Below are positions 5,941-27,163 of a DNA stretch of 32,506 bases, in pieces (position 1 is the stretch's first letter; every line of letters begins with the position of its first letter). The stretch lies in the NCBI GenBank assembly GCA_029907515.1, contig JARYLT010000023.1, positions 1-32,506 of the forward strand, given 5' to 3'. Origin of the DNA: Spirochaetota bacterium (GTDB lineage Bacteria; Spirochaetota; UBA4802; UB4802). The notes under the pieces are model-generated. The model saw nothing but the letters and a program-made list of their open reading frames with translations. It did no database searches and was not told the DNA's origin. The translations under genes were made by a program, and so were the position numbers.

Positions 5941-6090
5941 CTATCGCAAAACGTAAAGTGCAATAACGTCTGTGCTTGTAATATGTTTTACGATTTTATT
6001 ATCATCAACATCATAGATAAAAAGACCATTATAACCACTGGTATTACCGGATGATGCTATTACAATGTGCCTGTCATCTAGTGAGTCAAT
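5937..6090. repeat. 154-bp near-identical repeat, copy A (other copy 7250-7403)
   Basis: Bases 5937-6090 match 7250-7403 at 152 of 154 positions by my reading. The repeat covers the last 50 or so codons and stop of two lipoprotein genes plus a few bases beyond the stop. Identity collapses just outside it. This is much higher than the similarity of the gene centres and suggests recent gene conversion or cassette duplication. Confidence 0.85.
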
Positions 6091-6933
6091 ATTAAAATTT
6101 CCAATACTGCCAAAATTAAGAATAGCAGGATAATTGTTATCAGAAATGATGTGTTTTAATTGATATGTACCTGTTTCTGTAACAATTGCAAAAACATTGT
6201 CATCATCTGTAACTGTTACATCTATAAGTGAATTACCTACAGCAGTTGTTGAATTAAGTGTTGTTGTACTAGTGGGTGTAATTCTGAATATTGAATTTAC
6301 TGTGTTAGTGTACCATAGGTAGAAATAGTTTTTTGTTTTAAATCCTCCAAAGGGATTATTTATAGAAATGCCTAATATAGCGGTAAATATAGGAGTAGTT
6401 GGGTTATTCATTGTATAAATATTTACATTGGTGCCATCTGGTTCTACGACATAAATTTCATAATTATTTCCTTTGAATATTCCCAAGGTATTTGCTGGGA
6501 AAGATCCAATTGTTGTTAACCATGTAAAAGTTTCAGAGAGTTGATTAATATATAAACTTGTGGTATCAAAACAGACAAATGAATCATTAAATCCTAATAC
6601 GTTGGGATCGTTTGGGTTTGGAGCTACTGGTGCCCAGGTCTGTAAATCATTTTGTATTAGTATTGTGCTGGATGCATCGTATACTATAATAGATCCTCTC
6701 TGGCTAACCGATATTCCACCAGGTTTATTTGGAAATCCTGGTGTGATATTAAAGATTTTTAAATAATTAACATTTGCTATAATAAGTTTATAATTAAACC
6801 CATCATACGAAATTGCATAAGCTGTTCTTGATTTTCCACTTGCAATGTCATACATATCTAAGCGGTCGCAGGCAGGGAATATACATATACTGGTAAATAA
6901 AATTGAGTACAAAACTATTTTTATTATATTCAT
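5941..6933 (-). CDS. Lipoprotein, RLDMYD family (copy 2), beta-propeller-like
   Basis: A 330-residue lipoprotein with a hydrophobic signal peptide and lipobox FPAC at about residues 19-22, followed by the family segment DRLDMYDIASGKSRTAYAIS. The rest is rich in short beta strands with repeats of the form GxxGLFIYDVDDNKI and TVTDDDNVFAI, which suggests a propeller-like fold. The C-terminal 50 residues are nearly identical to the copy at 7254-8264 while the middle differs strongly. An AAGG ribosome-binding site lies 7 bases before the ATG. The function is unknown. Envelope display and paralogy fit a variable surface or periplasmic protein, but that is inference. Confidence 0.78.
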   Translation of the reverse strand: MNIIKIVLYSILFTSICIFPACDRLDMYDIASGKSRTAYAISYDGFNYKLIIANVNYLKIFNITPGFPNKPGGISVSQRGSIIVYDASSTILIQNDLQTWAPVAPNPNDPNVLGFNDSFVCFDTTSLYINQLSETFTWLTTIGSFPANTLGIFKGNNYEIYVVEPDGTNVNIYTMNNPTTPIFTAILGISINNPFGGFKTKNYFYLWYTNTVNSIFRITPTSTTTLNSTTAVGNSLIDVTVTDDDNVFAIVTETGTYQLKHIISDNNYPAILNFGSIGNFNIDSLDDRHIVIASSGNTSGYNGLFIYDVDDNKIVKHITSTDVIALYVLR

Positions 6934-7253
6934 TTGTATACCTTAAGTAAAATTATTATTTCACGGTTTTAATAATTATAAGTCGTATTTGTTTTTTTAC
7001 AAGTAAAAATAAAAAAATAATGAAATTATATCTATTTTAAAGAAAATAAGTATAATGGGATTTAATAATTATATTGGATTGTTAGCTATATTTACATGAA
7101 AACAATGCGTAATATGTTATGAAATAATTTTTAGTTTATAGCAATGAATTATATACTTATGCGGTATTTTGCAGAGGGATTATATAGAAAATTTCTTATC
7201 TTTAGAAAACTTAAGAAATAGATACTAAAAAATAATATAAACTTTTATCGTTG
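6934..7253. other. AT-rich intergenic region between lipoprotein paralogues
   Basis: About 320 bases without an ORF that I can support. It is very AT-rich and presumably carries the promoter for the 5941-6933 gene on the minus strand. I see no terminator-like hairpin, RNA gene or repeat apart from the few bases of the 154-bp repeat at its right end. Confidence 0.5.
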
Positions 7254-7403
7254 CTATCGCAAAACGTATAGTGCAATAACGTCTGTGCTTGTAATATGTT
7301 TTACGATTTTATTATCATCAACATCATAGATAAAAAGACCATTATAACCACTGGTATTACCGGATGATGCTATTACAATGTGCCTGTCATCCAGTGAGTC
7401 AAT
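7250..7403. repeat. 154-bp near-identical repeat, copy B (other copy 5937-6090)
   Basis: Partner of the 5937-6090 repeat, differing at only two positions that I can see. A second, weaker repeat links the gene starts: 6801-6870 with 8132-8201, encoding the RLDMYDIAS and RTAYAISYDG segments. The two paralogues therefore share both ends and differ in the middle. Confidence 0.85.
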
Positions 7404-8264
7404 CTGGAAAATACCATCTGATCCAAATGAGCTTAAAACAGGATAATTACCATCTGAAATAATTTGTTTTAATATATAATTGCTCGAATCTTGAACTAAA
7501 CAATAAATACCATCATCATCAGTAACAGCTGCGTCAATTAAAGATGAGCCTGTGTCTACAGTTTCATTAACAATTTTTATCATAGAGGAAGAAATCTTAC
7601 AAATAGATTTTTTCGTTTCTTTATTAAATGTGTAAAAAGCTTTTTTTGTTTTATACCCTTTTACAAATGTTCCTAATAAACCAGTATTTAAAGAAGTGTT
7701 AATTACTAAATTTGTATTAAGTTTGTTAATTGAATGAATAGTAACAGTATAAGTTGTACCATTATATTCATAAGCATATAATTGTCCATCGTTCCCCTTA
7801 AAAATGCCTTCAGTAAGAGGGGATAAAGATAAAAGATAATCCCAATAGTCTGTTTGATTATTATAATAATATAAAGTAGATGGAAAAAAATTTACAAATA
7901 TATTGTCAAAACCAAAAACAAATGTTGATTGAGGATAAATATTAGTTATTTTCCACTGTATAAGATTATTTTCAGAAAATGCAGCGGAGTTAAGAGTATT
8001 ATATACAATTATTTCATTTTTATCATTTACTGCCATACCAAAATTTCCCAAAGAATAACTTGGAAGTGTTGTTGCACTTGTAAATTTTTTTTCATAATGT
8101 ATGTTAGCAAGTATTAATGTATGAGTAGTTCCATCATACGAAATTGCATAAGCTGTTCTTGACCTCTGGCTTGCAATGTCATACATATCAAGACGTTCAC
8201 ACAAAGGAAAAAAGAAAATTGCAATTATAGTTATAAAGAAAAAAAGCTTTTTAGAAATTTTCAT
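7254..8264 (-). CDS. Lipoprotein, RLDMYD family (copy 3), beta-propeller-like
   Basis: A 336-residue paralogue of the 5941-6933 protein. It has a hydrophobic leader ending in lipobox FPLC at residues 19-22, then ERLDMYDIASQRSRTAYAIS. Both ends match copy 2 closely. The central 200 residues keep the same layout (GIFKGN, GYKTKK or GFKTKN, IDAAVTDDDGI) with many substitutions. An AGGA ribosome-binding site lies about 7 bases before the ATG. It is divergent from smc across about 370 bases of AT-rich DNA. No known family was recognised. Confidence 0.78.
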   Translation of the reverse strand: MKISKKLFFFITIIAIFFFPLCERLDMYDIASQRSRTAYAISYDGTTHTLILANIHYEKKFTSATTLPSYSLGNFGMAVNDKNEIIVYNTLNSAAFSENNLIQWKITNIYPQSTFVFGFDNIFVNFFPSTLYYYNNQTDYWDYLLSLSPLTEGIFKGNDGQLYAYEYNGTTYTVTIHSINKLNTNLVINTSLNTGLLGTFVKGYKTKKAFYTFNKETKKSICKISSSMIKIVNETVDTGSSLIDAAVTDDDGIYCLVQDSSNYILKQIISDGNYPVLSSFGSDGIFQIDSLDDRHIVIASSGNTSGYNGLFIYDVDDNKIVKHITSTDVIALYVLR

Positions 8265-12863: not shown

Positions 12864-13637
12864 ATGCAAACCAAACAATACACTCTTACCCCTGCAGCAG
12901 GCAAGCGCCTTATTGCTAAAGCCATTGCTGTTATGCCACAGGTGCAGGAAGCGTTGGAAAACAAAACCATCGTCATTGTTTCAGGTACTACAAATGGTTA
13001 TGTTGCTGAAGAGCTTTTACAAAGCATAGGCCAGAGTGAAGGTTTTTCTAAGCAGCGTTTTTTTAGAGGTATAACACTTCCGCCACGATATAAGGTAAGT
13101 CAATCAGGGAGACTGGAAGATGGTAGAACATTTGCCGCTGATGTTTTAATAGAAAAGGGAAAATGGATAAAAGATAAATCATTATTTGAAGTAGTAAATG
13201 ATTTGCAGGAAGGTGATATTATTTTAAAAGGAGCAAATGCAGTAAACATTGATACCAAACAGGCTGCAGTGCTTATAGGTCATCCGCAAGCAGGCACTAT
13301 TGGTGTTATCATGCAGGCAGTTGCTGGTCGCAGAGTCAAATTATTTATCCCTGTTGGATTGGAAAAAAGAATATCAGGAAACATAAATGAGCTTCCACAG
13401 CTTATCAATTCACCACAAACCAAGGGAATACGCTATTTCCCGGTAACAGGCACTATCATAACAGAACTTGAGGCTATTCATATACTTACGGGATGTCATG
13501 CTTTGCTTTTTGCAGCAGGGGGAGTAAGTGGTGCCGAAGGTTGTGTATGGTTAGCTGTTACTGGTACAGAAGAGCAAATACGAAAAGCTGATGAAGTTAT
13601 AGAGACAGTCAGATATGAGAATAATTTTGTAATTTAA
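12864..13637 (+). CDS. Conserved-looking protein of unknown function
   Basis: A 257-residue soluble protein with no signal peptide or membrane segment. I do not recognise the family. Visible features are an alpha/beta pattern (NKTIVIVSGTTNGYVAEELL, VKLFIPVGLEKRI), the segment EGDIILKGANAVNID around 117-131, and a Gly-rich stretch HPQAGTIGVIMQAVAGR around 140-156. The C-terminal part, CHALLFAAGGVSGAEGCVWL and TGTEEQIRKADEVIETV, resembles small alpha/beta ligand-binding domains in general layout. There is no clear ribosome-binding site before the ATG. Its 3' end overlaps the convergent gene at 13609 by 29 bases. Coding pattern and length make it a real gene. Confidence 0.7.
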   Translation: MQTKQYTLTPAAGKRLIAKAIAVMPQVQEALENKTIVIVSGTTNGYVAEELLQSIGQSEGFSKQRFFRGITLPPRYKVSQSGRLEDGRTFAADVLIEKGKWIKDKSLFEVVNDLQEGDIILKGANAVNIDTKQAAVLIGHPQAGTIGVIMQAVAGRRVKLFIPVGLEKRISGNINELPQLINSPQTKGIRYFPVTGTIITELEAIHILTGCHALLFAAGGVSGAEGCVWLAVTGTEEQIRKADEVIETVRYENNFVI

Positions 13638-15789
13638 AAACAATCAAAATAAACCCCAATACAATCAATATCACTAGCGAATAAATCCCAAAAAACGGAA
13701 GCAATACAAATGGTGTTATCAATGCACCAGATAATGCACCACTGTGATCGGCAGCATCAAGAGTTGAAGCTAAAAGCTGTATATCATTGGTTTTCCTGTT
13801 AAGTAATAGTGGTATAAAAGAACCGGTAGTTGCTGCAATGAGTATAATTGAAACATACAACAGTATTGCGTTATTGTAGATAGTAAAACAAAATAACATC
13901 ACTAAGCCAGTAATTAATACCATAATCCTTGTAATAAAAAAATCTTTTTGTGTAAATGTGGATGCACTGCCTATTGCTAATCCTAACATAAACAATGCAT
14001 TACAAAGAGCAATTTTATAATACAAAACACCAAACACATTTTGATACGCAATAAGTGCAATGATCATTGTTGCCATGCTGATAAATCCGCTTACAAATAT
14101 TATGCTGCCAAAAATTATGTGTTGAGTTCCCCGTGATTTGAAATACCATAAGCTTAAAATTACTATTAGTATTAACAAAAGTATCATCAACAAAGGATTG
14201 GTAATAATACGTTCTGCTTCTGAACTGGATTGTTTTAATGAATTAGCTAAATATTCAAAGTATCCTTTTGGTAAAAGGTCACTGTTTATGACATGTTCAG
14301 ATTGTAATTGTTTTGCAAGATATTCCTGTTGCGATTCCTGAAAATACATTTTAAATTCCTGGGGACTAAAGCCCGGCACAAGACTGCGTATTGTTTTTGA
14401 AATAGGAGATGTTGAAAAATTTTTTATATACTGTGACAGATAGTTACTGGTATCAGTATTACGGTTATAATTAAGTCCAATACAGTAAATAGTATCCCCT
14501 GCTGAAATAAGTGATGAAGGGAATACTTGCCTGAAGCTATTTATAACTGATGCAATATATCGCCTGAGAGAAGGATTCATAATATTGGCAAAGCCTTCAA
14601 TCTGAATAATGCACACGCCAATATTTGTTAAATGTAGTTTACAATCTTTAAAAAATTCTACGGTATATAACCGATTATGCATAATGCTGTCAGGGGGTGG
14701 TGGCAAAATGATGACAGCATTATATTTTTTGCCTGTTGATTTTAAGTAATGGCGTGTATCGTCATAGTAAACATTTATTAATTGTGAGGGGAAATCTGGA
14801 TATATTGAAATTATTTTTTGCTGTACAATATTCCACATCACCGGGTCAACAGTAACATGGTCAATAGAAGCACCTGCAAATGCAAAAACGTAATGCAGGA
14901 AGGCAGTATCTCCTGAAATGAGGATATCTGTATCTTTTAACACAGAGCCCGTGGAAAGTAATGCGTGAATGATAGGTCGTACCTGGTAGTCGTCTGGAAA
15001 TTGTGCATACAGGTTATTGTTTCCATACAGTACAATGGTGTCATCAACACCTGCAACAAACATCATCTGATAGGGGGTACGTCTATATTCAAGTAGTGTA
15101 CCAGGATGATTTGCAGCAAATGACAGTGAGAGCAGTTTCTTCTCAACGTATGATGAGTGAGCTATTACAAAGGCAACAATAACCATAGCAATAACTATCG
15201 CCAAACGCTTGATTCTTTGTTGTACAACAGTGAATGAAATAATGCAGGCAATGATGAAAAGAATAAGTGTGGTTCCTAATGGGTTAATTTTTTGTATGAT
15301 TAAAAATGTAAATGCTATTCCACCAGTAAATGCGCCAAGTGATTCAAGTAAAAATACTACAGTTCCAGGATTGTTAATTGTTAAACGTGAGCATGCATTA
15401 ACTAAAACTGGAAAGATATATCCAATAATGAAGCATTGCGGTAAAAGACATACCAATGCAATAACAAGTTCCACTTCAAGTGGGTAAAATGAATCATACG
15501 TGTGATAGAATATAGGTGTACAGTATAGCAGTATAAGCGAAATACATACTAAGCTCGGATGAAGTAAAATGTTATGGGCAATACTGCTGAATTGATGCGC
15601 TTGTATTTTTTTGCTTATGGCTGCACCAGCGGTGATACCAGCAAACCACAACACCATAATAATACCAATAGATAGTTCATTGCCCCTGAAAAACATGAGT
15701 AATTCACGAATCATAATTGCCTGGGCAATGCTAGCTGAAATGCCAATGAAGAATGTAGATATATATAAAAATACACGGTTGTATTTCAT
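13609..15789 (-). CDS. Polytopic membrane protein with internal spermidine-synthase-like domain
   Basis: A 726-residue protein in three parts: about seven N-terminal membrane helices beginning FLYISTFFIGISASIAQ, a soluble Rossmann-like domain at about 240-420, and about six C-terminal helices. The soluble domain resembles spermidine synthase, with DILISGDTAFLHYV, then VTVDP for the nucleotide-binding acidic residue. YNAVIILPPPPDS with NRLYTVEFF follows, similar to the LPDP-NRFYT-EFF pattern of membrane-fused aminopropyltransferase-like proteins. The Asp used for catalysis in true spermidine synthases is not evident at ILPPPP, so polyamine synthesis is doubtful. The ATG at 15789 overlaps the radical SAM stop (ATGA), and an earlier in-frame ATG at 15798 is possible. 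It is the third gene of the AmmeMemoRadiSam operon. Confidence 0.78.
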   Translation of the reverse strand: MKYNRVFLYISTFFIGISASIAQAIMIRELLMFFRGNELSIGIIMVLWFAGITAGAAISKKIQAHQFSSIAHNILLHPSLVCISLILLYCTPIFYHTYDSFYPLEVELVIALVCLLPQCFIIGYIFPVLVNACSRLTINNPGTVVFLLESLGAFTGGIAFTFLIIQKINPLGTTLILFIIACIISFTVVQQRIKRLAIVIAMVIVAFVIAHSSYVEKKLLSLSFAANHPGTLLEYRRTPYQMMFVAGVDDTIVLYGNNNLYAQFPDDYQVRPIIHALLSTGSVLKDTDILISGDTAFLHYVFAFAGASIDHVTVDPVMWNIVQQKIISIYPDFPSQLINVYYDDTRHYLKSTGKKYNAVIILPPPPDSIMHNRLYTVEFFKDCKLHLTNIGVCIIQIEGFANIMNPSLRRYIASVINSFRQVFPSSLISAGDTIYCIGLNYNRNTDTSNYLSQYIKNFSTSPISKTIRSLVPGFSPQEFKMYFQESQQEYLAKQLQSEHVINSDLLPKGYFEYLANSLKQSSSEAERIITNPLLMILLLILIVILSLWYFKSRGTQHIIFGSIIFVSGFISMATMIIALIAYQNVFGVLYYKIALCNALFMLGLAIGSASTFTQKDFFITRIMVLITGLVMLFCFTIYNNAILLYVSIILIAATTGSFIPLLLNRKTNDIQLLASTLDAADHSGALSGALITPFVLLPFFGIYSLVILIVLGFILIVFKLQNYSHI

Positions 15790-16907
15790 AGTGTCCATAT
15801 ACCAGGGATTGCAGTATTGCAGTACGGACATTTCCCTGATTTAAGTTTGTTTGTTGTTGTATAAAAACCGCTTCGTTCTATAACAGTTTTGCCGCAGTTA
15901 TGGCAATAGGTATTGTTGGCGCTATGCCCTGGGACGTTGCCTATATACACATATTTAAGTCCTTCAGCAAGAGCAATTTCCCTGCACCGTTCAAGAGTTG
16001 ATACTGGCGTAGGAGGAATATTTTTTAATTTGTATATTGGATAAAACCGTGTGAAGTGCAGGGGCGTTGTGCTGCCACAGTGAGTTTTAATAAAGCGAAC
16101 CATTGCCCTGATATCATCAGGATTGTCATTTAATGTGGGAATAACGAGATTTACCAGTTCAAGCCATACATTTTTTTTCTTAGCCAGTTCAATATTTGAA
16201 AGTACTGGCGATAGATTCCCACCACATATTTCAGAATAAAATTTCTGTGAATATGCTTTGAAATCAATCTTGATGGCATTGAGCAACGGATATAACATCT
16301 CGCTGGCTTGTTTATTGAGATAACCATTAGAAATGATGACACAGGATATGTTGTCTTTTTTTGCTACCTGTACAGTGTCGTAGATGTACTCATACTGAAT
16401 TGATGGTTCATTATATGTAAAGGCAATGACTGGCGTTTTGTGTTCTTTAGCCTGCTTTACAAGCTGAACAGGGGTTATATACTGGCTGTCAAGTTCTTCA
16501 GGCTGTGACTGTGAAAGCTGCCAGTTCTGGCAAAATTTGCAGCTAAAATTACAGCCAGCGGTTGCTACTGACAATGCATCATTGCCTGGCAAAAAATGAT
16601 ACAATGGCTTTTTTTCTATTGGGTCTATATGATATGCAGCAATACGTCCGTATACCAGGCTGTATAGTTTGCCATCCATGCACTGTCGGGCTTTGCATAA
16701 ACCCCTTGTGCCGTTTGTTAGCATGCATTGATTGGGACACAAATTACACTGTACGGTTTGTGCATCAATTTTTTTCCAGTGTAAAGCCTGGCGATAGTTA
16801 CTGGCAATAACATCTTCTGGCAGGAATGGAATAACCGAGCCAACCACAAGAGCTTGCATTGAATATAAACAGCTATGTAAAAATTCTTTACGAGTAACAG
16901 ATCTCAT
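15786..16907 (-). CDS. AmmeMemoRadiSam-system radical SAM enzyme with Tat-like N-terminus
   Basis: A 373-residue radical SAM protein related to pyruvate-formate-lyase activases and of the kind encoded with Memo and AMMECR1 proteins. The [4Fe-4S] motif CNFSCKFC gives Cys119, Cys123 and Cys126. An N-terminal Cys cluster, CNLCPNQC with GLCKAR (Cys54, 57, 61, 71), and a C-terminal CHNC...CPYC pair (probably zinc) frame it, as is usual for the family. Residues 1-35 are unusual: TRKEFLHS followed by a hydrophobic stretch, close to a twin-arginine export signal but with Lys for the second Arg. Its substrate is unknown. It follows the Memo-AMMECR1 fusion by 60 bases and overlaps the next gene. Confidence 0.88.
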   Translation of the reverse strand: MRSVTRKEFLHSCLYSMQALVVGSVIPFLPEDVIASNYRQALHWKKIDAQTVQCNLCPNQCMLTNGTRGLCKARQCMDGKLYSLVYGRIAAYHIDPIEKKPLYHFLPGNDALSVATAGCNFSCKFCQNWQLSQSQPEELDSQYITPVQLVKQAKEHKTPVIAFTYNEPSIQYEYIYDTVQVAKKDNISCVIISNGYLNKQASEMLYPLLNAIKIDFKAYSQKFYSEICGGNLSPVLSNIELAKKKNVWLELVNLVIPTLNDNPDDIRAMVRFIKTHCGSTTPLHFTRFYPIYKLKNIPPTPVSTLERCREIALAEGLKYVYIGNVPGHSANNTYCHNCGKTVIERSGFYTTTNKLKSGKCPYCNTAIPGIWTL

Positions 16908-16967: not shown

Positions 16968-18476
16968 TTATTTCATGATTTCATGTTCACTGAAAATTGC
17001 AGCAGTAAACGTGTACATTGTTACAGAGTCATATTCAAATGGATAAATTCCTGCCTTTTCACACGTGTGCTGAAAAAATTGCTGTTTTGTTAAACCATAT
17101 TCTGTTGCTACCTGTGGAAGCAAAACACCCCGCCTGTTGCCTTTTACAACAATAAGGCCATCAGTTCCCAGACGCAATTCATCCAGTGATGCAATTGGTT
17201 TATATGGCGATAACACAGATATTTCAATATGTATTTTTTTATATTCATCTTTTGTAAGTGGTTTAAAGCGTGGATCTTTAAAAGCAGCATGTGCAGCACA
17301 CTCAATAACGGTTTGGTATAGCGGTTTTACAGGATCAATATAACCAATACAACCCCTAAGATTACCATTTATAGTTAATGTAACAAAGGCACCTGCGTTT
17401 TGTTTACAGTGTTCAGGGATTGTTCCTTTATATTCTACTAATGTTTTATTCTTCAGCATGGTTTCAATGGATTGACGAGCTAATGAAAGCAAAAATTTTT
17501 TATCATCATTGGATATATTACAGGAACTATCGCCCAATATGGTTGTGCTTATGGTATTAATTTCACCTGTTAGTACTACAGCTGCATAACTTACCGTGTT
17601 ATCGTAGTCGCCAGTAATGCTGGCTGACGTTGCATACGCTACTAATTCTTTTGTATGTACCTTTGACAATAATAATAGCCCTAACACTATTGCATTATGA
17701 CCACATATTGTAATGCCTGTTGACTGGCAGTAACTATAAAATTTTTCAGTGTTTTTTGAAAGTATATAATCAATTGCTTTCATATCATCACGTTTGATGT
17801 ATTCCATACGCGTATCTGGTTGCAGCTTGTAATAGGGAGCATAGCTAAATCGTTTGCCATGGTGGGTAAAATCGCTGCTTATGACAAATAGTGGCTTTTT
17901 ATAGTGCGCTATTGCCTGTAATAATTGCGTAGCTGCCTGTCTTGCTTGCTGTATTGTTACATTGCCTGCAAGCACAGGAAGGATGGGGATCCCAGAGAAA
18001 TAATGCTGAATAAACGGCAATTGAATTTCGATAGAATGTTCGGGGTCAAAGGCATTGTTGTTAAACGTAAAAGTATTGTTTTGGGTCAATGTGTGTATTA
18101 CTTTCTGTTCAACGGTAACAACACCTAAAGGAGTTTTGATAGCATCATAAACGGGAAGGGCAAATCCAGTGAAATATTCGTAGTGAGATGGTCCTATTAT
18201 GACAATAATATCAGGTTTATAGCTTGATATAGCACTATAAGCTTTTGCAGCAACATGAGCACTGTACATATAGCCTGCATGAGGAACTATTATGAGTGGA
18301 ATGTGTGATATTTGCTGTGATGGATGTTCTGATGATGAAACGTATTTCAAAAGTTCATTTTTATCGGAAGGATACCATGATCCTGCTAATCTGGATTGTT
18401 TGGTAATGCTATAGCTTTCAGTGCATTGTAAAGAAAAAAGTAATATAAGTAATGCTATTACTGGTATACGATTCAT
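16968..18476 (-). CDS. Exported Memo-AMMECR1 fusion (AmmeMemoRadiSam proteins B and A in one chain)
   Basis: A 502-residue fusion. Residues 1-18 form a hydrophobic leader ending FSLQC, a relaxed lipobox, so it is probably a lipoprotein or at least exported. Residues 27-305 are a Memo domain (dioxygenase-like fold). Its putative metal residues are all kept: His66 in PHAGY, His98 in GPSHY, His147 in DPEHS, His205/206 in SDFTHHG, and Cys258 in ICGHN. Residues about 323-500 are an AMMECR1 domain with LRGCIG at 373-378 and LLPQVATEYG. Human Memo and AMMECR1 are separate proteins and the bacterial reaction is undescribed to my knowledge. It is first in a likely three-gene operon. There is no Shine-Dalgarno sequence before the ATG. 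Confidence 0.9.
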   Translation of the reverse strand: MNRIPVIALLILLFSLQCTESYSITKQSRLAGSWYPSDKNELLKYVSSSEHPSQQISHIPLIIVPHAGYMYSAHVAAKAYSAISSYKPDIIVIIGPSHYEYFTGFALPVYDAIKTPLGVVTVEQKVIHTLTQNNTFTFNNNAFDPEHSIEIQLPFIQHYFSGIPILPVLAGNVTIQQARQAATQLLQAIAHYKKPLFVISSDFTHHGKRFSYAPYYKLQPDTRMEYIKRDDMKAIDYILSKNTEKFYSYCQSTGITICGHNAIVLGLLLLSKVHTKELVAYATSASITGDYDNTVSYAAVVLTGEINTISTTILGDSSCNISNDDKKFLLSLARQSIETMLKNKTLVEYKGTIPEHCKQNAGAFVTLTINGNLRGCIGYIDPVKPLYQTVIECAAHAAFKDPRFKPLTKDEYKKIHIEISVLSPYKPIASLDELRLGTDGLIVVKGNRRGVLLPQVATEYGLTKQQFFQHTCEKAGIYPFEYDSVTMYTFTAAIFSEHEIMK

Positions 18477-18482
18477 GTTGAT

Positions 18483-18511
18483 AAAATAAAATATTTTTTT
18501 TTAATTGTCAA
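18483..18511 (-). promoter_or_regulatory. Candidate promoter for the Memo-AMMECR1 fusion operon
   Basis: On the minus strand TTGACA lies at 18511-18506, then a 17-base spacer, then TATTTT at 18488-18483. The predicted transcript start falls at or within a few bases of the ATG at 18476. That, with the absence of a ribosome-binding site, would mean a leaderless message if this promoter is the real one. AT-rich DNA produces such matches by chance, so confidence is low. Confidence 0.33.
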
Positions 18512-18644
18512 TTTGAAATATGAAATAATAGTATAAGAATTAAGTATAAATTCATAAAATATATAAATCGATATCGAATAATATATAAAAAAATTCTTGA
18601 CAAAATTGACATAATATTTCGATGATTTATACATACCGTCTATA

Positions 18645-18653
18645 TGGTATAAT
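18645..18653 (+). promoter_or_regulatory. Candidate extended -10 promoter for the secreted Cys-rich protein
   Basis: TGGTATAAT at 18645-18653 is a full extended -10 element (TG-N-TATAAT). It would start transcription around 18660, just upstream of the G-rich ribosome-binding site and the ATG at 18676. No good -35 hexamer sits at the matching distance, which extended -10 promoters can tolerate. A TTGACA at 18606-18611 with TATACA at 18628-18633 is an alternative. Confidence 0.42.
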
Positions 18654-18675
18654 TCATTATAGATATGGGGGGTTT

Positions 18676-19395
18676 ATGAAGAGGTTTGCTATTTTGGTAT
18701 TAGTGGCAGGTTTTGTATTTATTGCATCAGCCGGATTCAGCACAACCTATATTCTGCATTTAAATGGTATGTGTTCTACTAACTGGCTTGATGGCAAAGG
18801 AACAGCACGTTTAGCAAGTGCACCCGGTTATGTTTCTGTAAACTGTTACGTTGATAATCGTAGTACGATAGCTTATTCGGTCAGTCAGTTTAAAACTAAC
18901 TATCTTGATGTATACTGTAAGGGAAGTAACTGGTGTTATATCGTAAACTACAGTGCCGGTGATGTTATAATGGGGTATATCAATGCTAATTATGATCCAC
19001 AGTGGAATATTGCGTATGTATATACAACCGCTGGTGCTGGTGGCGGAAGTGAAATAGCAATAAAAGGCATATCCGATCTTTTCACCTGTAACTTAGCAGG
19101 GCAGTTGGGTGTTAGTACAGTTCGTAATATGTATAACCATAATGATACCAATGGTATAACAATTTATCACATAGGTGGATATAAGGGAATTTTTGGTGCA
19201 TCTCTATTGTTACCTGGGGAGGATGATGGCGCAGTTGCATATCATTCATCAGGAGCATGTGTAAACTCGGGAAGCTATTCAAGTCTATGTACATGTACTC
19301 ACTGGACAAATCATGTTATTGCCTATACATGTACTGGTTATTACCTGGATCATTTTGGAATGAAAATGAAATTTATATATCAGTTAGGATGGTAG
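18676..19395 (+). CDS. Secreted Cys-rich protein, possible alpha/beta hydrolase
   Basis: A 239-residue protein with a Sec signal peptide (MKRFAILVLVAGFVFIASA, 1-19) and nine Cys in the mature part (33, 57, 81, 87, 138, 195, 205, 207, 219), which suggests disulphides. The layout resembles a lipase or esterase: an early strand and turn YILHLNGMCS, a nucleophile-elbow-like CYIVNYSAGD with Ser93, a Gly-rich TTAGAGGGSE, a possible acid in GEDDGAVAYH (183-184) and a late His in YLDHFG (226). The first Gly of GxSxG is Asn, so catalysis is uncertain. The ATG at 18676 follows a GGGGGG run 4 bases upstream. The in-frame ATG at 18622 would bury the signal peptide. A strong terminator follows. It is divergent from the Memo-AMMECR1 fusion. 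Confidence 0.6.
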   Translation: MKRFAILVLVAGFVFIASAGFSTTYILHLNGMCSTNWLDGKGTARLASAPGYVSVNCYVDNRSTIAYSVSQFKTNYLDVYCKGSNWCYIVNYSAGDVIMGYINANYDPQWNIAYVYTTAGAGGGSEIAIKGISDLFTCNLAGQLGVSTVRNMYNHNDTNGITIYHIGGYKGIFGASLLLPGEDDGAVAYHSSGACVNSGSYSSLCTCTHWTNHVIAYTCTGYYLDHFGMKMKFIYQLGW

Positions 19396-19419
19396 TTGAC
19401 ATTATTTTTCCTGCCACGG

Positions 19420-19448
19420 GCGCGGTTTGAAAGAGCCGCGCTTTTTTT
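19420..19448 (+). terminator. Rho-independent terminator after the secreted Cys-rich gene
   Basis: Stem GCGCGG (19420-19425) pairs with CCGCGC (19436-19441) around a 10-base loop, followed directly by a run of seven T (19442-19448). It lies 25 bases after the stop codon at 19395 and isolates that gene from the next one. It is one of the few GC-rich spots in the window. Confidence 0.88.
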
Positions 19449-19573
19449 CATAATTTCAAATAGCAATGTTCTTTATCCCGAATTAAAGAAATTAAAGAAT
19501 ACTTTAGAATAAAATGGTTTTTAATGGAAAGTATGATATTTAGAACTACGTAGTAATGGTAAGAGGATACTAT

Positions 19574-20674
19574 ATGAAAATAAAAGGGAGTCATATAGCA
19601 ATACTGTTGGTTATTATAATTATAGTGATTATTATGCTGATTTCAAAATCAGAAAATAATAACCAGCCTTCAACAATTTCGGCAGGCAATAGTTCAAAAG
19701 GCTATGGAACAGTGCTGGAGCAGATGGGGCTCATTTCGCCACAGGAGGCACTACAGGATTATAAGCAATTAGCAATTTATCCCCCAAACAGCAGGCCTCT
19801 GAGTAAAGAAAACATCGATTTACTTATGCCAAATCGTCGTTATGAGCAACCATTACCAATAGAAAAAGACAGTGACATCTATTATCTTTTTACTGCAGAC
19901 AAGTATCGAGTCATTGGTGATGAACCAATCACATTTGTGCTTATGGTACTTCAGGGTACAAAGCCTGACTCAGATAGGGTGCCAGTAACAATTACTAAAT
20001 CAATTATTAAAAAAGGTATTGATATAAAAACTGCAAAATATGTGTCGGAGCTATCGCTCATAAAAAATAATGTTGGTGACTATACTGCTGATGTTACCTG
20101 TGCACAGGTATTTACATCGGATAAAAAAACAGGTACATACTGGGCCCAGGTTGAATTTAAGGCTGCAGATGAAGTAGTTGATGCCTCTATACCATTTGAA
20201 TATTTCCCGGAAAATACCATACCGGCAAAGTTTACCGGAAATTTCAGGGACTACATAAAAAATGGTTCTTTCTATATTGATGTTGAAATTGATGTATTAA
20301 GAAAAGGCTATTATATTATTGATGCAAATCTTTTTGATAATGAACTTGAACCTGTAGCTTATACAATAGAAAAACGGGAATTACAAGCTGGCAGGCAGTG
20401 GGTTCCTCTTTTATTTTTTGGAAAAGTACTTTTAGATAAAAAAGCAAAACCACCTTTTGTGTTGCGGGATTTGCGTGGCTACCGATTCATTGAAGCAACA
20501 ACGCCTGATCCGGAATTTATGGACCGGGAAATGATGAAACCGTATGATGGTGAATATAAAACTAAGGTAAGCAGTTTAGATGGTTTATCGGATAAAGAAT
20601 GGGATGATGAGCAAAAACGAAAACGCATTGAGTTTCTTGAAAAAGAAAGCATGGGCGACATTGGTGTTCAGTAA
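19574..20674 (+). CDS. Membrane-anchored envelope protein of unknown function
   Basis: A 366-residue protein with one N-terminal membrane segment (about residues 7-25, IAILLVIIIIVIIMLIS) and a large domain that should face the periplasm. The body is beta-rich, with segments such as YYLFTADKYRVIGDEPITFVLMV and NGSFYIDVEIDVLRKGYYIIDANLF that look like Ig-type sandwich strands. The C-terminus is charged. The ATG at 19574 has AGAGGA 6 bases upstream. An in-frame ATG at 19556 is less likely. It precedes the thioredoxin-like lipoprotein by 9 bases, so the two form a pair. No known family was recognised. Confidence 0.68.
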   Translation: MKIKGSHIAILLVIIIIVIIMLISKSENNNQPSTISAGNSSKGYGTVLEQMGLISPQEALQDYKQLAIYPPNSRPLSKENIDLLMPNRRYEQPLPIEKDSDIYYLFTADKYRVIGDEPITFVLMVLQGTKPDSDRVPVTITKSIIKKGIDIKTAKYVSELSLIKNNVGDYTADVTCAQVFTSDKKTGTYWAQVEFKAADEVVDASIPFEYFPENTIPAKFTGNFRDYIKNGSFYIDVEIDVLRKGYYIIDANLFDNELEPVAYTIEKRELQAGRQWVPLLFFGKVLLDKKAKPPFVLRDLRGYRFIEATTPDPEFMDREMMKPYDGEYKTKVSSLDGLSDKEWDDEQKRKRIEFLEKESMGDIGVQ

Positions 20675-20683
20675 CTGATAACT

Positions 20684-21070
20684 ATGAATAAAAATATTAT
20701 TTATATAGTTTTACTTATATGTGCGATAGTTCATAGTATTGGATGTTCTGCCAAAAAAGAAACTCATCCAACAATCCAGCTTGTAATTCTGAGTGCCTAT
20801 AATTGCAATTCATGCTCTGCAATTGATGATACTATTGAATACCTTCAGCGTATAGACAGAGCACTTGAAATAAAAAAAGTGGATATACACAATCCCGAAG
20901 GCGCAATGTATGTATCACAGTATCATTTATGGAGGATACCTGTATATCTTTTTTTAGATGGCAATGGCATGGAATTGTACAGACTTGAAGGTGAGCAAAG
21001 TCGGAGTGAGATAGAAAAAGGATTATCAATAGCTAAACAGCGGATAACAAATCGAAATAAACCTGAATAA
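20684..21070 (+). CDS. Thioredoxin-like lipoprotein with CxxC motif
   Basis: A 128-residue protein with a signal peptide and lipobox SIGC (Cys21). The mature part has a thioredoxin pattern: strand IQLVILSAYNC, redox motif Cys41-Asn-Ser-Cys44, a second strand LEIKKVDIHN, and the cis-Pro site RIPVYLF (Pro86) followed by the DGNGMELYRLEG hairpin and a final helix. It should act in the periplasm as an oxidoreductase anchored to a membrane. At about 108 mature residues it is a minimal thioredoxin fold. It starts 9 bases after the membrane-anchored protein and may serve it or the Cys-rich secreted protein nearby. Confidence 0.82.
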   Translation: MNKNIIYIVLLICAIVHSIGCSAKKETHPTIQLVILSAYNCNSCSAIDDTIEYLQRIDRALEIKKVDIHNPEGAMYVSQYHLWRIPVYLFLDGNGMELYRLEGEQSRSEIEKGLSIAKQRITNRNKPE

Positions 21071-21106
21071 AAAATAAAGAAACTATACAAATAAAAAATT
21101 AAAATA

Positions 21107-21134
21107 TTGTATTGACAAATATTACTATTATAAT
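21107..21134 (+). promoter_or_regulatory. Candidate promoter upstream of the TonB-dependent receptor
   Basis: A perfect TATAAT lies at 21129-21134 with a weak TTGTAT 16 bases upstream at 21107-21112. A perfect TTGACA at 21112-21117 is only 11 bases from TATAAT and would need a different -10. The transcript would start near 21141, leaving a leader of about 37 bases to the ATG. Given the AT content this is only a candidate. Confidence 0.3.
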
Positions 21135-21177
21135 AAATGTAGCACTATAAATTAAATAATTTTTAAGGATGGTGCTT

Positions 21178-23112
21178 ATGAAACGTTTAGTCTTATGTTT
21201 TGTAGCAATTTTACTATTGTCTATCCCTGTATTTTCTCAGGAAGGGGACAATGTTATCCAGTTAGATGATGTAATTGTGTCTGATACTGTATTGTATCCA
21301 GGTGCGTATTATTCAATTCCAGGTAATACAGTAAAAGACAGTGTAAATACTGACCTGATAAGCGTCATTAAAAGCCAGGTACCATCATTATATACTGGGT
21401 CTAACAGGGTAATGGGGTATGGCGTTGCTCGAAGTGGTGCGGCTACAATATCAATTCGTGGTATAGGCAGATCGGGATGGGGGCCAACTACTGGAATTCC
21501 TATTCTTTACAATGGTATGGATACAACAATGGGTATTATGGGACATCCGGTTGCAGATATCATGACCATGAAAAATGTTGAGCGAATTGAAGTGTTAATT
21601 GGACCTCAACCGGTATTATTTGGTTCAAGTGCAATGGGTGGTGTTATCAATGTTATCACAAAAAAACAAAAAGAGGATGGATTTACAACAGAATTGCAGG
21701 GTTCCTATGGTACATGGAATACTACTGAGGATTACCTGTACCACATGGGTAAGTTTGGTAATATAGATTACAGTGTTGGGTATCAATTTCAAAAAACTGA
21801 TGGCGACTGGAAGCAAACAATAAATGGCAAAACATACACATCAGACTTTATGCAGCATAATGGAACAGTTCATGTTGGCTATACTCTATCCAAAAACTGG
21901 TATGCATCAGTTGATAGCTATGGCATGAAGCAAAATATCAATGATCCGGGACCAGAAGGAATAAGTGCTTTAAGTGGAGTTCCACTAACAAACCAATTAA
22001 ATCTTTTAGAAGAGTTTGATATTACTCGTGGTGGTGTTGTGGCTAAATTAGCCCATGATTATGGTACCTACAGTGGTTCGCTACAGGCAGAAGGCAACTT
22101 TGGTCGTCATGAATCAACGCAGGAGTCAACGGGAGCTGATAAATTTTACTCAAGTGACTCTTCATATGCAGTCAGATTAAAGGAAGTTGTTAAACTATGG
22201 CAGGGGAATACTTTAACTGCAGGTGCTGAATGGCGGCGGTATGGTGGTACAGCAAAGGACAGGTCATCAGGCACTTATTATTTAGATGATAAATTCATGT
22301 ATGATACCAGCGTGTATGTCCTGATGGATCAAAATCTTTTTAAGGATGTTCTGAGTATTAACGGTGGTGCACGATATTCCTATAATTCAGAGTATGGCGA
22401 TTATACAGCCTGGCAGGCGGGAGCAGCGGTTCGTCCACTGGAAAAGACTAAAATGTATACCAATGTGGCAAAAGGATTTAAATTCCCTGATATAAGACAG
22501 GTGTATTTGCAAGGAATGTTCCCTGCTATAAACCCCAATCCAGATTTAAAACCTGAAACATATACATCAGCAGAAATAGGACTGGAACAACAGATTATTG
22601 AGAAAATTAATATACATGTTGCAGGATATAGAATATGGTCTAAGGATAAATTTGTTTATGAAACTCAATGGATAAATGCTCCAGATTTTAACTACAATGG
22701 AGCTGAAGCGTCGGTTACCGTGCAAGCGTTCACGTGGTTAGCGTTCAATGCAGGATATTCGTATATTGATAATGAACAGGATGACACCTATTTACCCTAT
22801 GTACCAAAACATAAAGCAAATGCAGGCCTGACAGTAAGCTACAAGGGTTTTAAAGCTGGAATAGATGGCGAATATGTAAAGGGATTATATGCTGATAAAG
22901 ACGGAGTAAAAGAATTTGACAGTTACCTGGTTGCAAATGCATCGCTGTCATATACAATCCTGGAAAAATACACAGCATTTGTTAATTTCTATAATATTAC
23001 TGATAAAGACTATGCTACATTTGCTGTATTAGTTCCTCCATTAGGGAATTCCTATTGTGAATATCCAATGCCAGGTTTTCATTTCTTAGCAGGGTTGAAG
23101 GCAACGTTCTAA
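21178..23112 (+). CDS. TonB-dependent outer-membrane receptor
   Basis: A 644-residue receptor with a signal peptide at 1-20 (MKRLVLCFVAILLLSIPVFS). Next comes a TonB-box-like stretch near residue 27 (IQLDDVIVSDT), then a plug domain at about 40-150 (ISVIKSQVPSLYTG, ATISIRGIGRSGWG, VERIEVLIGPQPVLFGSSAMGGVINVIT). A 22-strand-type barrel follows, with the late motif KGFKFPDIRQVYL...NPNPDLKPETYTSAEIG and a C-terminal Phe. It imports a scarce ligand through the outer membrane. The ligand cannot be told from the sequence. Metal chelates, haem or cobalamin are typical, and the upstream B12-dependent mutase makes cobalamin only a guess. The ATG at 21178 has AAGGA 8 bases upstream. An ATG at 21169 would sit directly against that site. 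Confidence 0.9.
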   Translation: MKRLVLCFVAILLLSIPVFSQEGDNVIQLDDVIVSDTVLYPGAYYSIPGNTVKDSVNTDLISVIKSQVPSLYTGSNRVMGYGVARSGAATISIRGIGRSGWGPTTGIPILYNGMDTTMGIMGHPVADIMTMKNVERIEVLIGPQPVLFGSSAMGGVINVITKKQKEDGFTTELQGSYGTWNTTEDYLYHMGKFGNIDYSVGYQFQKTDGDWKQTINGKTYTSDFMQHNGTVHVGYTLSKNWYASVDSYGMKQNINDPGPEGISALSGVPLTNQLNLLEEFDITRGGVVAKLAHDYGTYSGSLQAEGNFGRHESTQESTGADKFYSSDSSYAVRLKEVVKLWQGNTLTAGAEWRRYGGTAKDRSSGTYYLDDKFMYDTSVYVLMDQNLFKDVLSINGGARYSYNSEYGDYTAWQAGAAVRPLEKTKMYTNVAKGFKFPDIRQVYLQGMFPAINPNPDLKPETYTSAEIGLEQQIIEKINIHVAGYRIWSKDKFVYETQWINAPDFNYNGAEASVTVQAFTWLAFNAGYSYIDNEQDDTYLPYVPKHKANAGLTVSYKGFKAGIDGEYVKGLYADKDGVKEFDSYLVANASLSYTILEKYTAFVNFYNITDKDYATFAVLVPPLGNSYCEYPMPGFHFLAGLKATF

Positions 23113-23164
23113 GCTCAATACTGCAGTATTACCTATTGTATCAGATTAATAGTAGTAACACATT

Positions 23165-23193
23165 AAAGGTGTGCATTATGCACACCTTTTTTT
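23165..23193 (+). terminator. Rho-independent terminator after the TonB-dependent receptor
   Basis: A perfect 11-bp stem, AAAGGTGTGCA (23165-23175) with TGCACACCTTT (23179-23189), has a 3-base loop and runs into further T residues to 23193. It lies 52 bases after the receptor stop and separates it from the Memo gene. Confidence 0.88.
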
Positions 23194-23273
23194 ATAATTT
23201 GCCAGAATAAAATCACTTGCAAAGAGGGGTATGTTTTATTATATTTAGTATAATCATTCGTGGAGGTTTTAGT

Positions 23274-24092
23274 ATGTGGCAACGCAAACCCGGATTTGCA
23301 GGTTCATTTTATCCGGCAAGTCCTGAAAAATTAAAAAATGAAATCATTACCTACTTATCAAAAGTAACTGTAAAAAAGCTGGAACATCCTGTAGCATTTA
23401 TAGTACCACATGCAGGGTATATTTATTCTGGACCAGTAGCTGCATATTCATATGCTCAGCTAAAAGAAAATCCTGCTGATGTTGTAATTGTACTGGCACC
23501 TTCTCACCGTGCACGATTTAACGGTGCTTCAATTATTACCAATGGTATTTTCAGTACCCCTCTTGGTGATATTACCGTGGATAGTACCATTGCTGGAAGG
23601 CTTCTTGATGAGGAAGTTTTTTTTGAGATTAAAGAAGCACATCAATATGAACATTCGCTCGAGGTACAACTGCCTTTCTTGCAGGTAGTTTTGAAGGATT
23701 TTGTTTTAGTACCGATAGTTATCGGTACCATTGATTTAGAATTATGCACACAGATAGGTAAAAAGTTAGCTCAAGTACTACAGGATGAGAAACGGAATTA
23801 CAGTATTATAATTTCAACCGACCTTTCACATTATTATCACTATGATATTGCCAGAAAAATTGATACTACGTTTATCGAATCATTAAAAAAATTTGACGAA
23901 AACTATCTCTATGAAATGCTGCAAAGCGACAAAGCACAGGCATGCGGTGAAGGCCCTGTGTTGGCTGGGATGGTGGCTTCAAAACAATTGGGAGCCCAAA
24001 GGATTGAAATTTTACAGTATGCAAATTCAGGCGACACAGCAGGCCCTAAAAATGAGGTTGTGGGATATTTAGCTGCTGCGTTTGTTAAGTAA
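23274..24092 (+). CDS. Memo-family protein (AmmeMemoRadiSam system protein B), cytoplasmic copy
   Basis: A 272-residue stand-alone Memo domain without signal peptide. The putative metal-site residues are kept: His46 in PHAGY, His78 in APSHR, His127 in YEHSLEVQLPF, His186 in STDLSHY, and Cys224 in ACGEGP. The end YANSGDTAGPKNEVVGYLAAAF is typical of the family. A TATAAT sits at 23249-23254 and GGAGG 7 bases before the ATG at 23274. The upstream in-frame ATG at 23217 would add a non-conserved hydrophobic stretch and has no good ribosome-binding site. It is paired with the AMMECR1 gene 9 bases downstream and is a divergent homologue of the fusion protein at 16968-18476. Confidence 0.9.
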   Translation: MWQRKPGFAGSFYPASPEKLKNEIITYLSKVTVKKLEHPVAFIVPHAGYIYSGPVAAYSYAQLKENPADVVIVLAPSHRARFNGASIITNGIFSTPLGDITVDSTIAGRLLDEEVFFEIKEAHQYEHSLEVQLPFLQVVLKDFVLVPIVIGTIDLELCTQIGKKLAQVLQDEKRNYSIIISTDLSHYYHYDIARKIDTTFIESLKKFDENYLYEMLQSDKAQACGEGPVLAGMVASKQLGAQRIEILQYANSGDTAGPKNEVVGYLAAAFVK

Positions 24093-24101
24093 GGAGGTGA
24101 T

Positions 24102-24677
24102 ATGGTACAGCTCAATGATGAACAAAAGAAGAAATTACTTGCGCTAGCACGAAGGACTATTGAAGAATATTTAAAAAAAAGAACATTGCCAAAAGTAGAT
24201 TATAACCATGAATTTGCAGATGATGTATTCAAACAAAAATGCGGTGCATTTGTAACACTGCATAAATATGGCGCGTTACGTGGCTGTATTGGTTATGTGA
24301 AGGGGATTAAAACTATACCTGAAGCTGTTGTTGATATGGCAAAAGCATCTGCATTTGAGGATCCGCGTTTTGAACCCTTACGAAAAGATGAGCTTGATGA
24401 TATAGATATAGAGATTTCGGTATTAACACCAGTTGAACCTGTTAATGATATAGGGGAGATAGTTATCGGTAGAGATGGCCTTATAATAAGTAATGGATTC
24501 AGGGCAGGATTGCTTTTACCACAGGTTGCAACAGAATACGGATGGGATGTACAAACGTTTTTGGAGCATACATGTTACAAAGCAGGATTGCCTGCAGATG
24601 CATGGAAATGGGAGAATACAAAAATAGAAAAATTTTCAGCAATAGTTTTTGGCGAAAAGGAGCTAAACTTACGATAA
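24102..24677 (+). CDS. AMMECR1-domain protein (AmmeMemoRadiSam system protein A), cytoplasmic copy
   Basis: A 191-residue AMMECR1 domain. Hallmarks are CGAFVTLHKYGALRGCIGYV with the LRGCIG core, FEDPRFEPLRKDELDDIDIEISVLTP, and GLLLPQVATEYGWD with the later HTCYKAGLP. There is no signal peptide. A near-perfect Shine-Dalgarno AAGGAGGTGAT lies directly before the ATG, so strong translation is expected. It follows Memo by 9 bases and must be co-transcribed with it. The same two domains are fused in the exported protein at 16968-18476. The biochemical role is not established. Confidence 0.92.
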   Translation: MVQLNDEQKKKLLALARRTIEEYLKKRTLPKVDYNHEFADDVFKQKCGAFVTLHKYGALRGCIGYVKGIKTIPEAVVDMAKASAFEDPRFEPLRKDELDDIDIEISVLTPVEPVNDIGEIVIGRDGLIISNGFRAGLLLPQVATEYGWDVQTFLEHTCYKAGLPADAWKWENTKIEKFSAIVFGEKELNLR

Positions 24678-24742: not shown

Positions 24743-25189
24743 ATGAATAAAATTTTAAAACAAGTATTTATTATGTTACTTATTCAATCAATACTTTTTA
24801 TCTCGTGCTCTAAGAAAAAGGATTATTCTGATATAGATAATTTATTAACACAGTGGGCATATGCAATCAGAAACCTGAACTATAGTGAATATAGTAGATT
24901 AGAAGCTTATCCAAAAGATATAAATACATTCAATGCAATGTATCAGCAATATTATATTGCTAATATAAAAATTGTTAAAGTGGATGAAAAACTTCATCAC
25001 GGTACGGACAACGATGGGAAGCCTTATGAATTTAAAAACGTACAATTTATAGCTTCATTATATAACAGGCAAACTGGCCGTGAACAGCAAATTGTTAATG
25101 GCGATATAAAATTAATTCGTTATATTTCCGGATCCAAAAAAAACAGAGGATGGTTATTGTCAAACAGGACTTTTATCTATCAAGAATAA
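24743..25189 (+). CDS. Small lipoprotein of unknown function
   Basis: A 148-residue protein with a hydrophobic leader and lipobox FISC (Cys around residue 22). The mature part resembles small alpha+beta domains of the NTF2/SnoaL type in outline: helix DNLLTQWAYAIRNLNYSEYSRL, then strands FKNVQFIASLYNR and DIKLIRYI, ending GWLLSNRTFIYQ. That fold call is inference. AAAGGAG lies 11 bases before the ATG. The TPR gene begins 6 bases after its stop, so it probably heads an operon with the TPR protein and the phosphatase. Confidence 0.72.
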   Translation: MNKILKQVFIMLLIQSILFISCSKKKDYSDIDNLLTQWAYAIRNLNYSEYSRLEAYPKDINTFNAMYQQYYIANIKIVKVDEKLHHGTDNDGKPYEFKNVQFIASLYNRQTGREQQIVNGDIKLIRYISGSKKNRGWLLSNRTFIYQE

Positions 25190-25195
25190 TGGATA

Positions 25196-27163
25196 ATGAA
25201 AATACGTAAAAACATAAAGTATATAGTTTTGCAGTATTTGTGTACCAGTTGTCAAAGGATTGGTGTAATATTATTTATTATTCTTTTTTCACAACTAATG
25301 ACTACGGTTGCTATCTCACAAAATCCCAACACCATCGCAGAGATTAACAAACGTGCCCAGGAATATTATGATAAAAAAGAACTTTCAAAAGCCATAATTG
25401 AATGGTTAAAAATACTGGAAATAGATCCAAATAATGAAGAAGTACAGCGAAAAATAGAACTTGTATATGAGGAAAAACATAAAAAGGATATATCATTGCA
25501 AAGAGCAAAGTTATATTATCGGTTGTCAAGGAAAGTGTTACCTGATAATGTAGAAAATGCCAAAAATAATTCAAAGATTGCAATAGAAAATTTTATTATT
25601 GCCTATAGAATGGATCCCAATGACCCTGAATTACAGGTATTACGCGAAGATTTAAAACTTTTAGATAATGAGATAAAACTGGAACTGGCCAAAAAGCGAA
25701 TGGCCGAAGAGATAAAGAAAAAATATTATGTACTGTTGGAAGATGCTAATAAATTAATGCTGGAAAAGCAGTACGAAGATGCCATCAAAATTTGGGATGA
25801 AATATTGCGATTAGTCCCGCTTGATACAGTTGCTCTTGAAGGTAAACGACAGGCTGAATTGGCCATAAGCAACAGATTAAAATATGAAAAGATAATAATG
25901 TTGATTGCATCTGGTGAAGAATTGTTTAAACAAGAAAAATATATCGATTCACGAAATGAATTTTTGCAGGTATTGAATTTAGATGCTAAAAACAGAGTGG
26001 CTAAAGATTATATATCCAAAATAGATGATATTCTTGAAGAAAAAAGGACCTATGAGCAGCGACGTATACAGGCAGAACAGTTTTATGTTGCTGGCATAAA
26101 TAATTTAAAAACATATGAGTTTGACCAGGCAAAAGACAACTTTGAAAATGCACTGGCATTAATTGACAACTATAAGGATGCAAAAGCACAACTGGAAGCG
26201 ATTCCCAGATTAAAAAAAGATTATGAAGAACAACAGCGATTACTAAAACTTCAAAAAATTGACAAAACGTTCCAGGAAGGTTTACTGGCATTAACTGAAG
26301 GTAGATATAGAGATGCAATAGCAGCATTTCAAGCTACGTTAACATTAGACCCTAAGAATGAATTGGCTAAACGCTATCTTTCCACTGCACTTGACGCCTT
26401 GAGGGTGCAGGAAGAAGAAGTTGTGGATGAAAACAACCCATATTATTCCATTGTTCAGCCATTGATTGAATCAGGAAAACGCCTGTATAATCAGGGGAAT
26501 TATGATGAATCAAGAAAACAATGGCAGAAAATATTAAATCTATTCCCACAAAATAGAATTGCTACTGAATATTTGCTACGGTGTGATTTAGCGCAGAATC
26601 CCGAATCATTTAAGAAATTTGCAGATAATATAGTTAATGAAGGAAAAAAGTATTTAGCTGATAGAAAATTTAATGAAGCATATAGAAAATTTGAATTAAT
26701 AGCTTCAATTGATCCTCAGTATCCTGAAATTCAAAATTTAATGGCATTATCACGAGTTGAAAAAAAGAAAGCGGGTTTTGAAGGAACGGATGAAGATTTT
26801 AGAAGACGATATAATGTTGCTATGCAAATGTATCAGCAAGGTGGGAAAAATAACCTGCAAAAAGCACTGGCAGAATTTAGAGTAATTAATAATAAATATC
26901 CTGAATACATTCAGGTAGCAATAATTATTAATAAAATAGAATCGCAGTTGCGTTTTGAGGTAACTGAAGAACGTGAAGTTAAAAAATTGACACCCCGTCA
27001 GCAGGAACTTGTTCGTGAATACTATTTTAAGGGTATCAATTACTATAGTAATAATCAATTTGAACTGGCTATTACTGAATGGAGAAAGGTTTTAGCAATA
27101 GACCCTACTCATGAAAAAGCAAAAAATAACATAAAAAAGTGTTTAATATTATTGGGCAGGTAA
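25196..27163 (+). CDS. Exported TPR-repeat protein
   Basis: A 655-residue protein with a long N-terminal leader (basic residues, then VILFIILFSQLMTTVAIS at about 25-42) that suggests export to the periplasm. About eight to ten tetratricopeptide-type repeats follow, for example AQEYYDKKELSKAIIEWLKILEIDPNN, ANKLMLEKQYEDAIKIWDEIL, EGLLALTEGRYRDAIAAFQATLTLDP and KGINYYSNNQFELAITEWRKVLAIDP. Between them lie charged coiled-coil-like helices. It is probably a scaffold for envelope protein complexes. It sits 6 bases after the lipoprotein and 3 bases before the SpoIIE-type phosphatase, so it may pass an envelope signal to that membrane phosphatase (inference). Confidence 0.85.
   Translation: MKIRKNIKYIVLQYLCTSCQRIGVILFIILFSQLMTTVAISQNPNTIAEINKRAQEYYDKKELSKAIIEWLKILEIDPNNEEVQRKIELVYEEKHKKDISLQRAKLYYRLSRKVLPDNVENAKNNSKIAIENFIIAYRMDPNDPELQVLREDLKLLDNEIKLELAKKRMAEEIKKKYYVLLEDANKLMLEKQYEDAIKIWDEILRLVPLDTVALEGKRQAELAISNRLKYEKIIMLIASGEELFKQEKYIDSRNEFLQVLNLDAKNRVAKDYISKIDDILEEKRTYEQRRIQAEQFYVAGINNLKTYEFDQAKDNFENALALIDNYKDAKAQLEAIPRLKKDYEEQQRLLKLQKIDKTFQEGLLALTEGRYRDAIAAFQATLTLDPKNELAKRYLSTALDALRVQEEEVVDENNPYYSIVQPLIESGKRLYNQGNYDESRKQWQKILNLFPQNRIATEYLLRCDLAQNPESFKKFADNIVNEGKKYLADRKFNEAYRKFELIASIDPQYPEIQNLMALSRVEKKKAGFEGTDEDFRRRYNVAMQMYQQGGKNNLQKALAEFRVINNKYPEYIQVAIIINKIESQLRFEVTEEREVKKLTPRQQELVREYYFKGINYYSNNQFELAITEWRKVLAIDPTHEKAKNNIKKCLILLGR

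Follow-up and report, generated by a model that had tools for sequence, protein, structure and literature searches.

Two Memo–AMMECR1 loci and their surroundings

The window, a stretch of 32,506 nucleotides on one contig of a Spirochaetota bacterium, a phylum that FlaA matches also suggest, carries two sets of genes for Memo and AMMECR1 proteins (Table 1). In one set, the two domains are fused in a single reading frame behind a leader peptide, and the operon continues with a radical SAM enzyme and a polytopic membrane protein, whose reading frame opens at 15831 and for which 15798 was taken as the start. In the other, Memo and AMMECR1 are encoded by separate genes. The leader-bearing operon and the split pair are transcribed divergently and hence are not one operon.

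Table 1. Positions of the genes belonging to the two Memo–AMMECR1 sets
Feature	Position	Strand	Remarks
Memo (TIGR04336)–AMMECR1 (TIGR04335) fusion, predicted to be exported	16968..18476	-	502 aa; lipoprotein-type leader MNRIPVIALLILLFSLQC, followed by TES
Radical SAM enzyme (TIGR04337)	15786..16907	-	373 aa; Tat-type leader MRSVTRKEFLHSCLYSMQALVVGSVIPFLP; CxxxCxxC intact
Polytopic membrane protein, third gene of the leader-bearing operon	13609..15798	-	~7 helices, aminopropyltransferase-fold domain, ~7 helices
Memo protein (TIGR04336), predicted cytoplasmic	23274..24092	+	start from Shine-Dalgarno sequence and conservation
AMMECR1 protein (TIGR04335), predicted cytoplasmic	24102..24677	+	profile match
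Small lipoprotein-like gene	24743..25189	+	immediately 3′ of the split genes in most genomes of the order
TPR protein	25196..27163	+	kept downstream of the split pair
Second radical SAM enzyme (TIGR04337), leaderless	G000:C149:49092-50072		on another contig than the window

The split pair heads a conserved gene cluster of its own, which in most genomes of the order includes the small lipoprotein-like gene and, in many of these, the TPR gene next. The two systems are separated by ~5 to 6 kb in the window's genus and in genome G028 and by 36 kb in G006; elsewhere they lie on different contigs, which are long in G008, G015, G029, and G031. Between them (18622-23112), the window encodes two proteins without a Pfam match, a thioredoxin-like protein whose matches are weak and sub-threshold, and a TonB receptor, a block kept in 5/5 genomes of the genus. 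Elsewhere in the window (5441-8264, minus strand), tandem paralogous proteins of unknown function have the C-terminal stretch DSLDDRHIVIASSGNTSGYNGLFIYDVDDNKI in common. An Rfam search of the window gave no match, so no riboswitch was seen.

Profile searches bear out the first-pass annotation in its reading of both loci as genuine Memo and AMMECR1 sets. The fusion matches TIGR04336 over residues 27 to 301 (5e-69) and TIGR04335 over residues 328 to 495 (4e-55); the Memo parts of the two sets score 232 and 294 bits (cut-off 26), their AMMECR1 parts 186 and 187 bits (cut-off 99), and a search of the whole genome found two copies each of Memo and AMMECR1 and no others. The positions aligned to H49, H81, D189, H192, and C244 of human MEMO1 are kept in 20/20 fusions (one of them a fragment with a gap at H49) and in almost every split copy. 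Similarly, L373, R374, G375, C376, and G378 are invariant among 18 aligned fusions, and the LRGCIG residues are intact in both sets. The third His of the His/His/His/Cys set noted earlier is thus conserved, but it is no ligand in the human MEMO1 structure, in which iron is held by H49, H81, and C244 only (PMC11081632). The split Memo gene has an ATG at 23274 preceded by a GTGGAGG Shine-Dalgarno sequence, and its start region is kept across the order; it therefore lacks a leader, and a leader is seen on the fusion and not on the split pair, as had been proposed. Among the relatives G005 to G045, a second, weakly matching AMMECR1-like family (45 to 70 bits, ~200 to 230 aa) occurs in most genomes of the order.

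Radical SAM enzymes, leaders, and predicted export

The first-pass annotation counted a single radical SAM gene, which holds within the window; the genome, however, carries a second TIGR04337 gene on contig C149. Both enzymes score well above the cut-off of 220 bits (369 bits for the copy beside the fusion, 376 bits for the C149 copy), and CxxxCxxC is present in 71/71 aligned radical SAM rows. The C149 enzyme starts directly at the domain; the one adjoining the fusion bears a leader. Across the 46 genomes of the order (G000 to G045), the fusion occurs in 20, and both kinds of radical SAM enzyme were found in 17 of these, the other three (G002, G017, and G025) being draft assemblies. Of the 26 genomes that lack the fusion, 23 have exactly one radical SAM gene above the cut-off, always leaderless. 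Given the second gene, the genome holds two complete AmmeMemoRadiSam triads instead of half-sets with a radical enzyme in common.

Nearly every fusion whose N-terminus is intact has a Cys at the end of the leader's hydrophobic stretch, G023 being an exception; this residue, Cys18, is kept in at least 90% of 18 aligned fusions, as in a lipoprotein leader, with a lipobox that is non-canonical within the genus of the window. An RR/RK-type leader is present on 19/19 of the order's cassette-encoded radical SAM enzymes, and their unlinked counterparts begin at the domain. The twin-arginine motif reads RR-x-F-L in most relatives outside the genus and RK within it. TatC was found in the window's genome; in G001, which also has the cassette, no TatC match was seen, which counts against export via Tat.

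The third product, of ~730 aa, was modeled by AlphaFold with a mean pLDDT of 83 and a pTM of 0.84, showing ~14 helices that flank a soluble domain, for which Foldseek returned the aminopropyltransferases 1uir and 3anx as best matches (E ~1e-8). Counts of Lys and Arg in the loops, read by the positive-inside rule, put the N-terminus inside and the soluble domain outside in 14/14 members, which predicts a periplasmic location for the domain. Where spermidine synthases have their catalytic DxxDP segment, the membrane protein reads PPxP (PPxPEN-like) and the catalytic Asp is not kept, which sets it apart from ordinary spermidine synthases. Among genomes of the order, 20/20 that carry the fusion have a strong match to the membrane protein, as against 0/26 of those that lack it; the weaker matches in the remaining genomes are generic aminopropyltransferases.

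Outside the order, lipoprotein-type fusions were found in G056 and G068, the latter from another family of the phylum and with a clear lipobox (LLSGC, locus L203), and G048 has a Tat-type radical SAM enzyme and the membrane protein with no adjacent fusion. Our survey of other phyla covered plasmids and viral contigs; in plasmid relatives from Sinorhizobium, Methylocystis, and Mycobacterium, AmrS has no Tat-type leader. A query of genome contigs with a single sequence matched only a relative in the same genus. In Segatella, a leader-bearing fusion adjoins a leaderless AmrS, as on a plasmid of Segatella hominis (L215:5926-8418), where a fused amrB-amrA with a signal-like N-terminus lies beside a leaderless amrS. 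Export of the fusion hence need not bring the radical enzyme along, and export of the whole set may be special to the lineage studied here.

The same arrangement suggests an alternative for the present operon, namely, that only the fusion is exported and that the radical SAM enzyme has a leader that serves as a membrane anchor or has no function, leaving the enzyme in the cytoplasm and the operon with products in both compartments. Radical SAM chemistry requires SAM and low-potential electrons; the periplasm is not known to offer either SAM or a strong reductant, and radical SAM enzymes are not expected outside the cytoplasm. Our search of the open-access literature found no description of an exported one. 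While the chemical requirement and the RK motif of the window's genus also favor a mixed operon, clear RRxFL motifs in most relatives speak against it, as does the soluble domain of the membrane protein, likewise predicted to lie outside. Moreover, the positive charges ahead of the hydrophobic stretch predict an N-in/C-out orientation, so that even an uncleaved anchor would place the enzyme outside. On balance, we regard a cytoplasmic location of this enzyme as rather unlikely. The predicted relocation of the second set to the envelope is well supported by the leaders and topologies read from these sequences.

Linkage, selection, and the ages of the two sets

Fusion, radical SAM, and membrane protein genes follow each other in the same order and on the same strand in 16 genomes of the order. 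The membrane protein co-occurs with the fusion at a Fisher p of ~1e-13 with kinship ignored. On the order's tree, the fusion state changes ~5 times, with one independent contrast on well-supported branches and no exception; with so few changes, the co-occurrence p-values overstate the evidence. Of the two relatives from IMG/VR, L221 is the informative one, as a single 733-aa ORF (L221:5926-8127) comprises Memo, AMMECR1, and the AmmeMemoRadiSam radical SAM enzyme. Such a triple fusion argues for the three working as a unit and against their being divided by a membrane. Together with the operon and the co-occurrence, it is indirect evidence that they may act together on a common substrate.

These observations bear on the idea, put forward in the first-pass annotation, of a common product that would come from the cytoplasmic pair and be used or repaired by the envelope fusion, or vice versa, with one radical SAM enzyme between them. 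The proximity of the loci (5 kb apart in the genus, within ~6 kb in G028) would fit such a relay, as would the fact that every well-sampled genome with the leader-bearing set also has the cytoplasmic one, both branches persisting side by side. The relay rested, however, on one radical SAM gene serving both pairs, and lost its support with the second enzyme. The first-pass annotation had itself named a second radical SAM partner that pairs only with the split copy as grounds for refutation; this is borne out in part, the exclusive pairing being suggested by compartment and co-occurrence. In addition, the cytoplasmic set is a near-universal core that many genomes of the order carry alone, and the loci lie on different long contigs in the four genomes named above. 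We therefore consider a relay improbable.

Between the window's genome (G000) and G003, dN/dS was 0.155 for the fusion, 0.064 for the Tat-type radical SAM enzyme, and 0.186 for the membrane protein, as against 0.070 for split Memo, 0.077 for split AMMECR1, and 0.047 for the unlinked radical SAM enzyme. Values of 0.05 to 0.19 in all six proteins indicate that both systems are maintained. That the leader-bearing set might be a decaying remnant without activity is suggested by G028, in which the fusion is split into three overlapping frames (L114:7243-9015), by either pseudogenization or assembly error; with dN/dS of 0.06 to 0.19 in this set and every fusion retaining the metal and LRGC residues, we find a remnant very improbable and largely contradicted.

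The Memo tree separates the fusions (96*) from the order's split copies (97*), each as a clade of its own, and the AMMECR1 tree shows the same division with weaker support (90/90); the window's fusion and split copy are never neighbors. Similarly, the cassette radical SAM enzymes group together (100/98, 18 rows), apart from a clade of the order's vertical leaderless copies. Clades of such breadth, each extending across the order, indicate that the division is older than the order and did not arise by local duplication, which agrees with the first-pass view of an old split specialized by compartment. A recent tandem duplication after which one copy acquired a leader, which the closeness of the loci in this genus might suggest, is contradicted by these trees and has next to no probability. 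In the window's genus, the leaderless enzyme (C149) has a long branch, placed with the leader-bearing side (100/99). This placement would fit a replacement of the cytoplasmic enzyme in the genus, but an AU test did not reject its grouping with the cytoplasmic clade (p = 0.317).

A putative envelope copy and its relation to known systems

Of the two complete AmmeMemoRadiSam systems in the genome, we consider it probable that one is the ancestral cytoplasmic core and the other a copy relocated to the envelope that acts on an envelope substrate. The core would consist of split Memo, split AMMECR1, and the leaderless C149 enzyme. In the relocated copy, encoded as one operon, the fusion would be anchored as a lipoprotein, the radical SAM enzyme would be exported folded via Tat with its Fe-S cluster, and the membrane protein would hold its aminopropyltransferase-fold domain on the periplasmic side. 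The exported triad may then perform the same radical and iron chemistry as its cytoplasmic counterpart and use it to modify an envelope molecule, as family knowledge would suggest. The membrane protein may supply or handle a SAM-like cosubstrate, or handle the substrate.

That the radical SAM enzyme indeed works outside the cytoplasm, within a complete envelope system to which a dedicated membrane protein delivers SAM or a similar molecule, is a more tentative proposal, which we hold to be possible but somewhat doubtful. If true, it would place such an enzyme in a compartment where SAM and reductant are not expected. Memo and AMMECR1 occur in humans and most of life, and we know of no member whose reaction is known; Memo, AMMECR1, and radical SAM were reportedly placed in one context by Burroughs et al. 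(2019, JBC). A whole system naturally moved across the membrane would narrow the function to reactions that the envelope allows, and the fourth partner hints at a cosubstrate.

Several known systems invite comparison. Pyruvate formate-lyase activating enzyme and other glycyl-radical activases are the second-best family matches of the radical SAM enzyme beside the fusion, far below cut-offs, and no glycyl-radical enzyme partner was seen in the window. Human MEMO1 (PDB 7KQ8, 7L5C) and the LigB-type extradiol dioxygenases have the fold family and the His/His/Cys metal residues in common with the Memo proteins described here, one of which is, in contrast, predicted to be exported and is fused to AMMECR1; MEMO1 itself has no known activity and showed no dioxygenase activity on the substrates tried (PMC11081632). 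SpeE and the fused MFS-spermidine synthases (NF037959, PRK03612) share the fold of the soluble domain with the membrane protein, to which PRK03612 aligned in its N-terminal helices and domain layout at 2e-24. Unlike these, the membrane protein stays below every cut-off, is PPxPEN-like at DxxDP, and has extra C-terminal helices and a domain predicted to be periplasmic. The closest known relative is the AmmeMemoRadiSam system (TIGR04335/TIGR04336/TIGR04337; amrA/amrB/amrS in PGAP), all three components of which are present here above curated cut-offs and of which a fused amrB-amrA beside amrS is also found on Segatella and Ideonella plasmids. Compared with the known system, one set here bears export-type leaders on every component and has a fourth, membrane component tied in.
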